From contig NZ_CP036289.1 in assembly GCF_007748115.1 (NCBI RefSeq), forward strand, positions 1,364,001 through 1,428,000: 64,000 nt of DNA, read 5' to 3'. Of the stretch, positions 1,302-13,374 are shown piece after piece. Under the pieces are notes generated by a model. The model saw only the letters and a list, made by a program, of their open reading frames with translations. It searched no databases and had not been told where the DNA came from. Numbering within the stretch: the stretch's first letter is position 1; each line of letters starts with the position of its first letter. Source of the stretch: Bremerella volcania. Lineage in GTDB: Bacteria; Planctomycetota; Planctomycetia; Pirellulales; Pirellulaceae. Made by a program: the position numbers and the translations under genes.

Positions 1302-2048
1302 GGGGAGCAGCTCGGCAAGTAAATCGTTCTGGGGAAACGCGTGACCCAAATGCTGGCGAAACGATTCGGCGTAGTCGGTTCCGATGAGCGTGCCACGCTG
1401 GGCACTGTGCCGCTTCATCGCTTCCAGGTATTCGTCCATGCCGTGATGAGCCTGGAGCCACTCGCGCTGCGAAGCATGGCAGGCCAGCATCTGGGCCTTC
1501 TTCTCGATTTCACGACTGACGTCAATGGTAATCGTTGGCGTGACCGGCTCGCCAGTATACGGGTTGATGCCTTCGATCGGATCGGCGTAATACAGATGCG
1601 GAATATGCGTACCGGGTGCCAGCGGTAGGCTGGAAGCGTTGGGGATCGGGAAGCTGAACGCCGCACTACGAGCCAGCAGATGCGTTTGCTCGTGATCGAG
1701 CATGTAATCCTCGCGCGGGTGCGTGATGACCAGCGTCGGACAAATCTGCCGAAACAGATCGATCGCCTTGCGGTTGGTCGACTTGTCGAACACGACGTTC
1801 ACGTCGGGCTCGGCCAGCGTGTGATACGTGCCGCCAATCAACTGGGCCGCGGCGATCCCTTCATTCTTGCGAATCGCGGCGATTTCTGTGCGAGGCAGTT
1901 TTTCGGAACCGCAGTCGCCGGCGGCCGTCGTGGCGATATGCACGTCCCAGCCCAACTCCGCGAGGCGAATGAGGACGCCTCCACACAGAATCTCCGCGTC
2001 GTCCGGATGGGCCATGAAACACAGAACAACGTTCGCCTGATCGCTCAA
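1299..2048 (-). CDS. PIG-L (LmbE-type) zinc-dependent N-deacetylase
   Basis: 249 residues. The family zinc motif AHPDD is at residues 13-17 and the later histidine cluster HPREDYMLDHEQTH at about 110-123; together these give the His, Asp and His ligands and the catalytic Asp of GlcNAc-type deacetylases such as PIG-L, MshB and BshB. No signal peptide is present, so it acts in the cytoplasm. The start is a TTG (2048-2046) with GGAG seven bases upstream. It is followed by the NagB-like gene and so is probably the first gene of a two- or three-gene unit. The substrate is unknown: an N-acetylated amino sugar or sugar conjugate is expected from the family. Confidence 0.88.
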   Translation of the reverse strand: MSDQANVVLCFMAHPDDAEILCGGVLIRLAELGWDVHIATTAAGDCGSEKLPRTEIAAIRKNEGIAAAQLIGGTYHTLAEPDVNVVFDKSTNRKAIDLFRQICPTLVITHPREDYMLDHEQTHLLARSAAFSFPIPNASSLPLAPGTHIPHLYYADPIEGINPYTGEPVTPTITIDVSREIEKKAQMLACHASQREWLQAHHGMDEYLEAMKRHSAQRGTLIGTDYAESFRQHLGHAFPQNDLLAELLP

Positions 2049-2185
2049 GGATCGCTCCCGATGGAAGAGGGCAAGTGGTGGTCAGGTAGGTGGGGCAGGG
2101 GAGGGTGCGTGCAAAGTTTACCAGATGAGTGGACGTTTGACGAAGAAAAAATGGCAACGCCAATAGCTTTTCATCTGACCACAAA

Positions 2186-2213
2186 AAAAGGGCCTGCCGA
2201 AGCAGACCCTTTT
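2186..2213 (-). terminator. Rho-independent terminator after prc
   Basis: Read on the minus strand, a 12-base stem (GAAAAGGGTCTGC side, one mismatch) closes on a TTCG-type tetraloop and is followed by a run of seven T. It lies 32 bases past the Prc stop codon and separates that gene from the PIG-L unit. Confidence 0.85.
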
Positions 2214-2244
2214 CATTGGTTATCGTTTCCATCGCCAAGCGAAC

Positions 2245-4374
2245 TTAGTTGTTCGAGGCGACCTTTTGTTGTTCCAGCAGGCGAACGTAGTCCTTGGTGA
2301 TGTTGATCACTTCGTCGAAGTAGTAATCGCGTTCGACGACTTCGTTCGGGTCGTCATCCGTTTCGCCAACCAGGCTTTCGATTTCCTTTTCGCGTTCGCT
2401 CAGGGCTTCGTACTCGGCCATGAACTTCTGCTTGTTGAGATCGACCTGCTTCTTGTCCTTCTGTTCGAGGTAGGTTTCGATCATCTTGTTCAGCTTCGTG
2501 AAGCCTTCGGACGATTGAACTCGCTGCCCCGACAGACGATTCAGTTCCGCCACCAGGGGTGCCGCATTGGCGTTGCTCACCGGGTAACGGGTCGTCTGAA
2601 CGGTGTCGAACGGAACCGGGTAGTCGAGGTCCCCTTCGGCGATGTCCATGTTGGCGGTCAGAGCCGGCAAGGCGACGTCGGCTTCAACCCCCTTGAGCTG
2701 CGTGCTCTTGCCGCTGGGGCGATAGAACTTTTGCAGCGTGATCTTTAAGGCACCCAGCGACGGAGGATTGACGGGGTTGGCACCCATCAACTCTTCGCGG
2801 CCCAGGTCCAGCAGCGTCTGAACGGTACCTTTGCCGTGGGTCTGCTCGTCGCCGACGACGATCCCGCGGCCGTAGTCCTGGATGGCACCGGCCAGAATCT
2901 CGCTGGCACTCGCACTCATCTTGCTGGTGAGCACGACCAGGGGGCCTTCCCACAGCATGCCGCGGTTCATGTCCTCGTAAGGATGGACGTTGTTGTCGGC
3001 GTCCTTCACCTGAACGACGGGACCTTGATCGATGAACAAACCGGTCAGGTCGATCGCTTCGGTCAAGCTACCACCGCCGTTACGACGCAGGTCGAGCACC
3101 ACGGCTTCGACCCCCTTCTGGCGGAAGTCCGCTAAAAGGCGAGCCACGTCGATCGTGCTGCGCTTGACATTTGGGTTGCCTGAGCGAGCGGCTTCCATGT
3201 CCAGGTAGAACGACGGCAGGTCGATCCAGCCGATCTTCATCTTGCGTCCGTCCGCGGTCGTTTGCTCGACGACTTCGCCGCGGGCTTCGCTGTCTTTCAG
3301 TTCGACCTTGGCACGGGTAACGTCGAAGATCTTGGTTTCGCCTTTACCCTTCTTCTTGACGCCCAGGCGAACGACCGTGTTGGCCTTGCCGCGGATCATG
3401 TCGACGACGTCGTTCAGCTTCATGTCGACCACGTCGACCATTTCGCCATCGGTGCCTTGGCCGACACTGACGATGAAGTCGCCGGCTTCCAGTTTCTCTT
3501 CAGGGTTCTTTTTACCGTGCTTATCGGCGGCACCGCCTGGAATCACTTTGGAAACCTTGCAGTATCCATCTTCCGACATCAGGGCAGCACCAATGCCTTC
3601 CAGGTTCAGACGCATTTGAATATTGAAATTCTCAAGCGTGCCTGGCGACATGTAGGTGGTGTGTGGATCGTAGGCGGAGGTCACCGACGTCAGGAAGACT
3701 TCCAGCAGTTCGTCTTCGCTGGTTTGGCCGATGCGGCGTGCATAGCTGTGGTAGCGTTTACCGATCCGCTCTTTGGCTTCTTCCAGGGTCTTACCGTCGG
3801 CCAGCTGAGTGAGCAGGTCGTACTTCAGACGCTTACGCCAACGATCGGTCGCTTCCGCCGCATTGGCTGGGTAATTGACCTTATCGCCATCGGTGACGAA
3901 GACTTCGTCTTCTTCGAAGTTAAATTCGTGGTTGGCCAAAAGGTCGTCCACCGTCTGCACGCGTTCCAGCGTTCGCTGAATGAAACGCTCGAAGACCTTG
4001 TGAGCGAACTCGGTGTTGCCGCTACGGACCTGGTCGTCCAGCAGGTTGCGATTAGCCGCAAATTCGGCGACGTCGGCTTCTGTGAAGTACAGTTTGAGTG
4101 GGTCCCAGAATTTCAGGAACTTGTCGAACGCCCGTTGCGAGATCGTATCGTCCAGCGGAGCGGTCGAAAGGTGATCGCGAAGCAACAGCCGAGAGACCAT
4201 TCGCGAGATGTGTCGCTCAGGAAGATGTCGGTCTTGGCCGGCAAGGGGGCCCTGAGCAGGGGCATTCTTGGGAAGCAACGACGCGACGACGAGTGTCGCG
4301 AACGTAGCGACGACCGTAAATAGAAAGAAAATGGGATGGCGCAAGTTAGTCCAATTCCCTCGAACGTTTGCCAT
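2245..4374 (-). CDS. prc: Carboxy-terminal processing protease Prc/Tsp (peptidase S41A)
   Basis: 709 residues, close to the length of E. coli Prc. Order: N-terminal membrane segment or signal (about 13-34), helical N-terminal domain to about 230, PDZ domain (about 250-345, with GIGAAL and the VIPGGAAD loop), then the S41 catalytic domain. SKMSASASEIL with Ser489, and GDEQTHGKGTVQ with Lys515, match the Ser-Lys dyad of Tsp. A charged helical C-terminal region follows, as in the Prc subgroup. It is exported and degrades or trims proteins from their C-termini in the periplasm. AAGGA lies upstream of the ATG and a terminator follows the gene. Confidence 0.93.
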   Translation of the reverse strand: MANVRGNWTNLRHPIFFLFTVVATFATLVVASLLPKNAPAQGPLAGQDRHLPERHISRMVSRLLLRDHLSTAPLDDTISQRAFDKFLKFWDPLKLYFTEADVAEFAANRNLLDDQVRSGNTEFAHKVFERFIQRTLERVQTVDDLLANHEFNFEEDEVFVTDGDKVNYPANAAEATDRWRKRLKYDLLTQLADGKTLEEAKERIGKRYHSYARRIGQTSEDELLEVFLTSVTSAYDPHTTYMSPGTLENFNIQMRLNLEGIGAALMSEDGYCKVSKVIPGGAADKHGKKNPEEKLEAGDFIVSVGQGTDGEMVDVVDMKLNDVVDMIRGKANTVVRLGVKKKGKGETKIFDVTRAKVELKDSEARGEVVEQTTADGRKMKIGWIDLPSFYLDMEAARSGNPNVKRSTIDVARLLADFRQKGVEAVVLDLRRNGGGSLTEAIDLTGLFIDQGPVVQVKDADNNVHPYEDMNRGMLWEGPLVVLTSKMSASASEILAGAIQDYGRGIVVGDEQTHGKGTVQTLLDLGREELMGANPVNPPSLGALKITLQKFYRPSGKSTQLKGVEADVALPALTANMDIAEGDLDYPVPFDTVQTTRYPVSNANAAPLVAELNRLSGQRVQSSEGFTKLNKMIETYLEQKDKKQVDLNKQKFMAEYEALSEREKEIESLVGETDDDPNEVVERDYYFDEVINITKDYVRLLEQQKVASNN

Positions 4375-12072: not shown

Positions 12073-13251
12073 CTACTTCGAAGTCTCGCGAGGAATCCAG
12101 CGGGTCTCGCCAGGAGCCAGGGCAGAATCGCTATTTTCAGAGATCACCGGCTTGGCGCTCAGACGCGACTGTACAATGTTCTGATTTTTCGTCGCGCCGG
12201 CTGCCGAAAGCATCTTCGAGATCGACTGCGAGAGCACCGACCCGGGGATGGCATAGGTCGCCACGCGGCCTGCTCGAGCGATGTTCAGGCCCACGACCTG
12301 ACCGTCCAGGTTCACGACCGGTCCGCCGCACTGCTCTGGCTGCAAATAGCTATCGTGCTGAAAGACCGAAGGAAAGCCGCTACGACGCGTGCTCAACTCG
12401 CCGCCGAGGTGATTCTGGAACTCGTGCCGAGCCTGGTTCGGACCGGCAACCCATTCCCCGAGCACGACGCTCAGCAGAACTTCCTGGTCCGCTCGCATGA
12501 GCTTCACGCGAAGCGAATCGCCTGGCTCGAACGTGCGGACCGTTTCGATCAAATGGTTGCCTGAATCGATGACCATGTCATTCAGCGAGACGATGACGTC
12601 TTGGGCCAAGATGCCTGCATTGGCCGCGGCACTCTTTTCGACCACCATGTCAACCGTCGCTGGGCCTGGTTCACGTGAGAGCATCACGCCGAGCATGGCG
12701 TTCTTCATGTCGACCTTGTGCGGATCGAGACCATACACGCCGATCGCGACCGGTTCCTCATCCAGTCCTGCGGTCGCCAGCAAACTGCCCAGCGACAACT
12801 TGCTGGTCGTCGCGATTTCCATCACCGGCAGGTTCTTGCCGTCGATACGAACCAGGGCCAGGTCGTTCTCCTTGTCGATCGCGGCGACTTCGCTGGTCAG
12901 GTACTGATCGCCGTTGGCCAGTTCCGCAACCAGAGGAGCGTCATTGTCATAAGTGTTCACCAGGCTGGCCTTGGTGACGATCAAGCCGTTGGGATCGACA
13001 ATGCCCCCCATGGCGATGCGTTCGCCGCCACGCTTGAATTCGACCGTCGCGCGACGCGTATTGCGCACGACCGAGTCGAACGCGCCCAGCACTTCGCTGC
13101 TGCTTCGCTGGTGGACGCGTTTCATGAAACGCATCGCGATGCCGTCGCTTTCAAAGACCTGACCGATGACCGGCGTCGGGGCGAACATCGCCATCGACAA
13201 AGGGGCTACGATCAATAGGAACAGCAATGAATTCAAACGAAACCGGGGCAT
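12073..13251 (-). CDS. Exported trypsin-fold pseudoprotease with a PDZ domain nested in it
   Basis: 392 residues with a signal peptide (LLFLLIVAPLSMAMFA). The first half of an S1C (DegP/HtrA) fold covers about 55-165: GLIVTKASLV stands where active enzymes have GLILTAGHV, so the His position is Ser96, while Asp130 in KENDLALV is kept. A PDZ-like domain follows at about 180-270. Only then comes FQHDSYLQPEQCGGPV, aligned with FIQTDAAINPGNSGGP, so the catalytic Ser is Cys308 (codon 12330-12328). The PDZ therefore sits between the two halves of the protease fold instead of after it. Likely a non-catalytic binding partner of the active protease encoded 123 bases upstream. GGAG precedes the start. 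Confidence 0.85.
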   Translation of the reverse strand: MPRFRLNSLLFLLIVAPLSMAMFAPTPVIGQVFESDGIAMRFMKRVHQRSSSEVLGAFDSVVRNTRRATVEFKRGGERIAMGGIVDPNGLIVTKASLVNTYDNDAPLVAELANGDQYLTSEVAAIDKENDLALVRIDGKNLPVMEIATTSKLSLGSLLATAGLDEEPVAIGVYGLDPHKVDMKNAMLGVMLSREPGPATVDMVVEKSAAANAGILAQDVIVSLNDMVIDSGNHLIETVRTFEPGDSLRVKLMRADQEVLLSVVLGEWVAGPNQARHEFQNHLGGELSTRRSGFPSVFQHDSYLQPEQCGGPVVNLDGQVVGLNIARAGRVATYAIPGSVLSQSISKMLSAAGATKNQNIVQSRLSAKPVISENSDSALAPGETRWIPRETSK

Positions 13252-13374
13252 GTGGTCACTCCGTTGTTTCGTCGAAAGATGGTACGGCTTGCAAGCCAGC
13301 GTAAACGCCGTGCTCGCGCTAGGGATACTCTAGGCAAATAGGTGGCTGTAGGCCGGTCTCTTCCCAGGGTTACT

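Follow-up and report, generated by a model that had tools for sequence, protein, structure and literature searches.

Why should a bacterium keep an HtrA-like protein that has lost its catalytic residues and carries a PDZ domain inside its protease fold, next to a second HtrA gene in which the catalytic triad is intact? The question is raised by two neighboring genes in a 64,000-nucleotide stretch of the Bremerella volcania genome (contig NZ_CP036289.1, positions 1,364,001 to 1,428,000), the whole of which is referred to here as the window. The degenerate protein, P0001, and its neighbor, P0002, recur as a two-gene team that is often fused, which suggests that the dead copy is the dedicated partner of the live one. 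On balance, P0001 is probably a dedicated non-catalytic partner, either a subunit or a regulator, of the neighboring HtrA protease.

An HtrA-like protein with a degenerate triad

P0001 contains a trypsin-like protease domain homologous to HtrA. HtrA chains are its best matches in the PDB, both by sequence and by Foldseek structure comparison, and Pfam recognizes Trypsin_2 in two stretches (53 bits, best 82-162) and PDZ_2 at residues 186-262. The N-terminus, read by eye, has a signal-peptide-like segment. The His-Asp-Ser triad is not retained: the three positions are occupied by S96, D130 and C308, just as the original prediction, which was drawn from the letters of this DNA, had claimed. Nor is the domain order that of HtrA/DegP, in which a C-terminal PDZ follows a contiguous protease domain; in P0001 the PDZ separates two protease blocks.

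Predicted position of the PDZ domain

When a profile of 55 relatives was compared with a DegP-like PDB chain, the same blocks were found in a different order. Profile positions 37-139 match chain residues 94-200 and positions 252-306 match residues 205-264, while the PDZ block at 140-247 matches residues 269-386. In the DegP-like chain the two protease blocks are thus almost contiguous and the PDZ comes after them, whereas in the P0001 family it lies between them. Because the block order differs, the PDZ falls at a point where the DegP-like chain has few residues. This point is after the GIVSA..R strand of the chain and before its QTD strand, which on our own reading of the alignment would make it loop L3; the boundaries of L3 in HTRA1 are given as Ser298-Leu307, with Arg302 inside, in the part of that study used here (PMC5666011).

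The AlphaFold2 model of P0001 has a mean predicted local distance difference test score (pLDDT) of 83.1 and a predicted template modeling score (pTM) of 0.76, with 260 of 392 residues at or above 90 and about 37 low-confidence residues after the last long helix. The PDZ strands and helices are modeled between strands 169-180 and 293-299. Strands of the second barrel flank the domain on both sides, and the PDZ is therefore nested, in the model, within the second barrel and not between the barrels. An insertion into the protease fold had been predicted and is borne out by both the profile blocks and the model, while its proposed site between the two halves of the fold is refined. The protein modeled on its own likewise does not form a contiguous protease domain followed by a PDZ. 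Among the matches listed by Foldseek, HtrA chains gave TM-scores of only 0.22-0.30 by query length with this model and with that of a fused relative, as expected because the domain order differs.

In 154 of the 165 scorable members the inserted stretch is 120-149 letters long; the other 11 have 217-254 letters, with two PDZ matches inside in ten of them. Seven loci (L178-L181 and L186-L188) hold 688-999 aa open reading frames (ORFs) of one family, in which the dead protease encloses two PDZ domains and the Ser position is taken by Met or Gln.

The replaced active site and its origin

Relatives were drawn from 60 related genomes, a 294-genome sample of the phylum, a scan of named genomes (74 loci) and some further stretches; the set fetched leaves aside weak or partial hits and part of the matches of one family in the phylum sample. 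After identical pieces were merged, 174 ORFs were scored and 168 kept. Six ORFs were dropped because they are not nested proteins: two canonical partners, a further HtrA, and three other trypsin/PDZ proteins in which Arg occupies the His position. In the phylum trypsin/PDZ proteins L189, L190 and L191, Arg is aligned at the His position and GNSGG occurs elsewhere in the ORF.

Among the 168 members the His position holds Ser in 158, Thr in six, Asp in two and Gly in one (one gap), so that none of the 167 scorable rows has His, while Asp is kept at its own position in all 167 scorable rows (one gap). Lys94 is also kept in 167 of 167. The Ser position holds Cys (147), Met (5), Gln (5), Val (3), Ile (2), Thr, Leu or Phe (1 each), with three gaps, and Ser in none of 165 scorable rows. 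The named-genome scan required Cys, and its 74/74 is therefore true by construction; among the 104 members found without that requirement, Cys is present in 83 of 101 scorable rows and Ser in none. His299, of the QHD motif, is found in 154 of 165 rows, and Gly occurs in 0 of 163 rows at the position that we take to be that of the oxyanion-hole Gly. Lys94, Ser96, Asp130, QHD, Cys308 and NIARAGR make up, at the level of sequence, a conserved replacement pseudo-active site. Of the points on which homologues were to be checked, lack of the His held, and none with an intact His or Ser was found in the scorable rows; strict conservation of Cys308 did not hold, 18 of 165 rows being different.

Such conservation does not fit a decaying pseudogene, since the same replacement residues are kept in relatives of 94 down to 26% identity. 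Moreover, comparison of P0001 with four same-genus copies (393 codons) gives differences mainly at codon position 3: 22/6/117, 30/7/119, 27/14/131 and 48/24/173 at positions 1/2/3. Chance or an assembly artefact is rejected as well, because the insert recurs across many genomes and its carriers group together in the 60-row tree. In that tree, a careful reconstruction from 60 cores with the active-site columns left out, the 27 nested proteins all fall into a single clade (100/100). The insert and the triad loss therefore most simply arose once, and the family probably has a single origin. Duplication of the neighboring partner was considered as a source and is not supported, as the pseudoproteases branch apart from the partners. 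The tree carries a long-branch warning, its deep placement is unsure, and two fused partners fall outside the main partner group.

An internal disulfide as the general role of Cys308 was also discarded, since Cys308 is the only Cys of P0001. A Cys at column 109 occurs in 97 of 165 relatives. Across adjacent pairs, nested Cys109 and partner Cys205 are distributed 64/5/26/10 (Fisher p 0.007), a raw association not confirmed on the tree. Both of these residues, common in relatives at column 109 of P0001 and residue 205 of P0002, are absent from the window proteins.

Linkage to a triad-bearing partner

P0002 has the triad H111, D142 and S212 and a C-terminal PDZ_2 at 266-346, and is thus a canonical HtrA by its features. 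It had been described as fully active; the triad motifs are indeed there, and from these motifs it is apparently a working protease. Among six other HtrA cores of the same genome that were compared, the motif is GNSGG in five and GDSGG in one. Further HtrA-like genes of this genome cluster at about 2630880-2634774 of G000:C1 (L005, L196, L200 and L203); one 649-aa ORF there aligns with Tyr in place of the His and Asn in place of the Asp, and this second cluster is perhaps another enzyme/pseudoenzyme set.

The pairing is not confined to the window. Of the 168 members, 105 directly follow a GDSGG HtrA gene of the same strand, the gap having a median of 51 bp and being zero or negative in 20; 46 are fused behind a partner HtrA in one ORF, and 17 are neither adjacent nor fused. 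Of the 104 members recovered independently of the scan that required Cys, 63 are adjacent, 31 fused and 10 neither, and in the genus of the window all nine members are adjacent. The triad is kept in the adjacent partners: His in 104 of 105 (one is truncated before it), Asp in 105 and Ser in 105, with Asp always just before the Ser (GDSGG). Presence of GDSGG or GDTGG was required of the 46 fusions; a pattern search detects a His motif in 43 of them, and the order is active protease, 0-2 PDZ, dead protease. Against a single ancient fusion or fission event, 14 changes of label are counted on a quick 129-row tree, although starred branches force just three. A contig labelled Candidatus Nealsonbacteria (L092) carries a fused form, likely through a binning error.

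Distribution of the pair

Co-occurrence was examined in a 27-genome panel chosen by presence or absence of the nested protein, which comprised 21 of 23 same-order genomes and six others; G047 and G058, both nested-positive, were left out. All eight positives (nested protein at 370 bits or more) have a partner at 307 bits or more, and none of the 19 negatives (nested match at most 83 bits) has a partner-class match above 178 bits. A perfect 8/19 split would arise by chance once in 2,220,075 if the genomes were independent, a figure that serves as a guide only, the genomes being related and chosen.

In the Pirellulaceae, 196 of 199 genomes match at 1e-30 or better (143 of 144 among the better genomes), counted as search matches and not read residue by residue. 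Blastopirellula marina, a culturable planctomycete, carries a homologue. The three genomes without the family are also without the partner, and two of them are just 63% and 87% complete. Outside the phylum, 16 of 194 Verrucomicrobiota genomes match; among 15 loci fetched, 13 have the partner as a same-strand neighbor and two are fused. Adjacency, fusion and joint presence or absence across genomes all strengthen the proposal of an enzyme/pseudoenzyme pair that had been made from the two window genes.

Eight Verrucomicrobiota genomes of 2.7-3.3 Mb (L214, L215 and L217-L222) have two nested matches each, and the one such protein that was read has Met at the Ser position. These are possibly gut bacteria.

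A proposed mechanism and the role of loop L3

How might a dead copy serve a live one? Both proteins would be exported, to judge by eye from their signal-peptide-like N-termini, and P0001 and P0002 would form one complex that is the working protease. The PDZ of the pseudo-subunit would bind the C-termini of substrates or stress signals, and its L3-linked surface would switch or position the catalytic subunit. Contact between the proteins, activation of the partner, and the direct binding or regulation of the neighbor by P0001 that the original prediction put forward are what we infer from the pairing.

HtrA proteases are allosteric enzymes that have been studied in depth, and loop L3 is a route by which their C-terminal PDZ can signal. 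This loop is short in most of the adjacent partners. Counted from the conserved Gly that precedes L3, the catalytic Ser lies at a distance of 21 in 90 of the 106 rows (P0002 included) and of 20-31 in the others, compared with 29 and 30 in the DegP-like and DegQ chains (hand count); most partners have therefore lost much of L3. An arginine at the L3 root is present in 127 of 165 pseudoproteases, while just 16 of 105 partners have Arg at the equivalent spacing. In HTRA1 this arginine is reported to link L3 with loop LD of the neighboring subunit and to be required for activity (PMC5666011).

The loss of L3 in the partners, the L3 arginine in the pseudoproteases and the HTRA1 precedent together led to a more specific and quite tentative model, a split allosteric protease in which sensing and cutting are divided over two subunits. 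The catalytic subunit would have kept the triad and given up most of the sensor loop. The dead subunit would have kept the L3 root, usually with its arginine, and would carry within L3 a PDZ domain that serves as sensor. Where the two kinds of subunit form a mixed oligomer, a peptide signal recognized by this PDZ would be relayed by way of L3 to the catalytic subunit next to it, at whose active site it would act. If the pair works as proposed, sensing and cutting sit on two chains and the PDZ-to-L3 route is directly testable; a function would also be given to a near-universal protease system of the Pirellulaceae.

Counter-evidence and alternative explanations

A number of observations weigh against a dedicated partnership or its split-sensor form. 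Occurrence in the phylum sample is patchy, with a full or split-full match in about 50 of 294 genomes (a tally of 71 includes PDZ-only matches). The first protease domain of one fusion (L062) lacks the triad, though a second GDSGG follows. Four of the 17 members counted as neither adjacent nor fused lie near contig ends, L065 is a tandem ORF without GDSGG, and L067 is in fact a fusion, since GDSGG lies in its N-terminal half; this leaves 11 members with no linked partner as far as the fetched DNA reaches. Eight of their genomes were searched and all eight, in favor of the partnership, have the partner elsewhere (328-416 bits, GGDSGG); the next-best HtrA there, at 202 bits, is the protease half of the fused L060 in G031, and others reach at most 176 bits. 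The remaining three (L112, L119 and L129) were searched locally only. Not all eight are clean unlinked cases, as the partner in G047 has a nested-like ORF beside it (180 bits) and G031 and G146 also carry a fused copy. The distances of 88 adjacent pairs correlate (r 0.775, none of 2000 permutations as high), which is expected because linked inheritance alone suffices. The AlphaFold2 model of a 577-aa fused relative (pLDDT 89.4, pTM 0.67) backs the fold of each part and does not fix the domain arrangement. Finally, the L3-root residue of P0001 itself is His178, not Arg, and this counts against the simplest form of the split-sensor model. As to L065, its ORF (1522-3876) ends in a nested pseudoprotease, and the protease-like domains upstream are without GDSGG.

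Other functions have to be weighed against that of a dedicated partner. The dead domain could be an assembly scaffold that drives oligomerization of the active one, its PDZ recruiting substrate only and no allosteric switch being involved. The order of domains in the fusions agrees with this, and trimerization of AtDeg7 reportedly involves its inactive domain (PMC3473262), but scaffolding alone leaves the PDZ at the L3 position and the short L3 of most partners unexplained; we regard it as unlikely. Still less probable is a substrate adaptor or chaperone, in which the PDZ and the former active-site cleft would bind unfolded exported proteins and hand them over without a stable complex. Unlinked copies that coexist with the partner in the same genome would suit such a role, as would the LGV motif retained in the PDZ, presumably like a carboxylate-binding loop; fusion to the partner in 46 of 168 members points instead to a stable arrangement.

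Two further alternatives are both very improbable. In one, P0001 is a cryptic cysteine hydrolase with Cys308 as nucleophile and a relocated base, such as His299 of QHD. Both residues are widely kept (147 and 154 of 165 rows, the Cys count coming partly from the Cys-requiring scan), but the Cys is replaced in 18 of 165 rows, which a quick tree resolves into nine changes, with the remainder of the site retained, and the presumed oxyanion-hole Gly is missing from all 163 rows in which its position could be read. In the other, P0001 is an independent metal- or ligand-binding protein that is merely co-regulated with the protease. The Lys, Asp, His and Arg strongly kept at or near the former active site, and the precedent of the metal-binding MamO (PMC4794232), lend themselves to this idea, yet fusion and co-absence with the protease suggest more than co-regulation. 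A dedicated non-catalytic partner of the HtrA protease thus remains the favored function of P0001.

Features of the locus

The coordinates are collected in Table 1. A gene of the DUF4404 cluster is found at 20 loci of the family, on the same strand in 19, and the DUF4404 gene of the window may be a third gene of the operon. A consensus scan found no promoter- or terminator-like sites in the 123-bp gap between P0002 and P0001. The sole minus-strand promoter-like site lies upstream of P0002, a weak indication, as the region has two sites where 1.2 are expected by chance.

Table 1. Features of the P0001-P0002 locus (positions in the window; residue ranges approximate where marked ~)
Feature	Position	Strand	Basis
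P0001, nested-PDZ pseudo-HtrA, 392 aa	12073..13251	minus	ORF, Pfam, AlphaFold2 model
Trypsin fold, first part (residues ~64-180): barrel 1 and initial strands of barrel 2	12712..13062	minus	
Ser96 codon, catalytic His position, motif TKAS	12964..12966	minus	
Asp130 codon, catalytic Asp position	12862..12864	minus	
PDZ domain (residues ~184-266), loop L3 position	12454..12702	minus	Pfam, model, profile
Remainder of barrel 2 (residues ~284-352), motifs QHD....P..CGGP and NIARAGR	12196..12402	minus	
Cys308 codon (CGGP), catalytic Ser position	12328..12330	minus	
Partner HtrA P0002, 355 aa, H111-D142-S212, C-terminal PDZ, short L3	13375..14442	minus	
Intergenic gap P0002-P0001, 123 bp	13252..13374	none	
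DUF4404 gene, 51 bp downstream of P0001	11653..12021	minus	Pfam

Relation to known systems

PDZ domains embedded in the catalytic part of a protease, where they act as gate or sensor, are known from CtpB/Prc (S41) and RseP (M50). These resemble P0001 in the embedding and differ from it in having unrelated catalytic folds and being active enzymes. In canonical HtrA, DegP and DegS, a trypsin-like domain is likewise combined with a PDZ, and P0002 is of that kind, but the PDZ of P0001 is nested and its triad is lost; known HtrA proteins are described as having 0-3 PDZ domains after the protease domain (PMC3640471).

The closest functional parallel is the MamE/MamO pair of magnetotactic bacteria. 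There, the dead HtrA-like MamO is needed for proteolysis by the live HtrA, which it promotes through a C-terminal transporter domain, and MamO also binds metal (PMC4794232). Here as there, an HtrA with a degenerate site co-occurs with an active-looking one. Instead of the transporter domain, of which Pfam finds no match in the 392 aa of P0001 and for which only the roughly 37 low-confidence residues beyond its last long helix would be left, the window protein has a PDZ inside its protease fold, and it scores only 39.8 bits with the NCBIfam MamO model, whose cut-off is 800.

Plant Deg7, with which yeast Nma111 is grouped as a tandem HtrA, offers a second parallel. The fused relatives of P0001 share its order of an active protease before a dead one. 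They differ in that a PDZ follows each protease domain of Deg7, the inactive one included, while the second PDZ set is here inside the dead domain; furthermore, Deg7 is one chain, whereas the window has separate genes and one chain is found in 46 of 168 relatives. The architecture of Deg7 is given as PD-PDZ-PDZ-PDia-PDZ-PDZ, with the inactive protease domain acting in trimerization (PMC3473262).

A survey of PDZ proteins in 1,474 genomes reports many of them in planctomycetes, and the portion of it available to us makes no mention of a nested-PDZ HtrA (PMC6411480). At the level of titles and abstract openings in the open-access papers searched, no description was found of a PDZ within an HtrA protease domain or of this family. 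Enzyme/pseudoenzyme pairs of HtrA proteins are thus already known from MamE/MamO and Deg7; neither, as described in the parts of those papers used here, has a nested PDZ, and so far as this search reached a PDZ placed in loop L3 is a new variation. A PDZ built into L3 of a dead HtrA is kept together with an active-looking partner almost without exception in the Pirellulaceae, and the same pair extends to other Planctomycetota and some Verrucomicrobiota.
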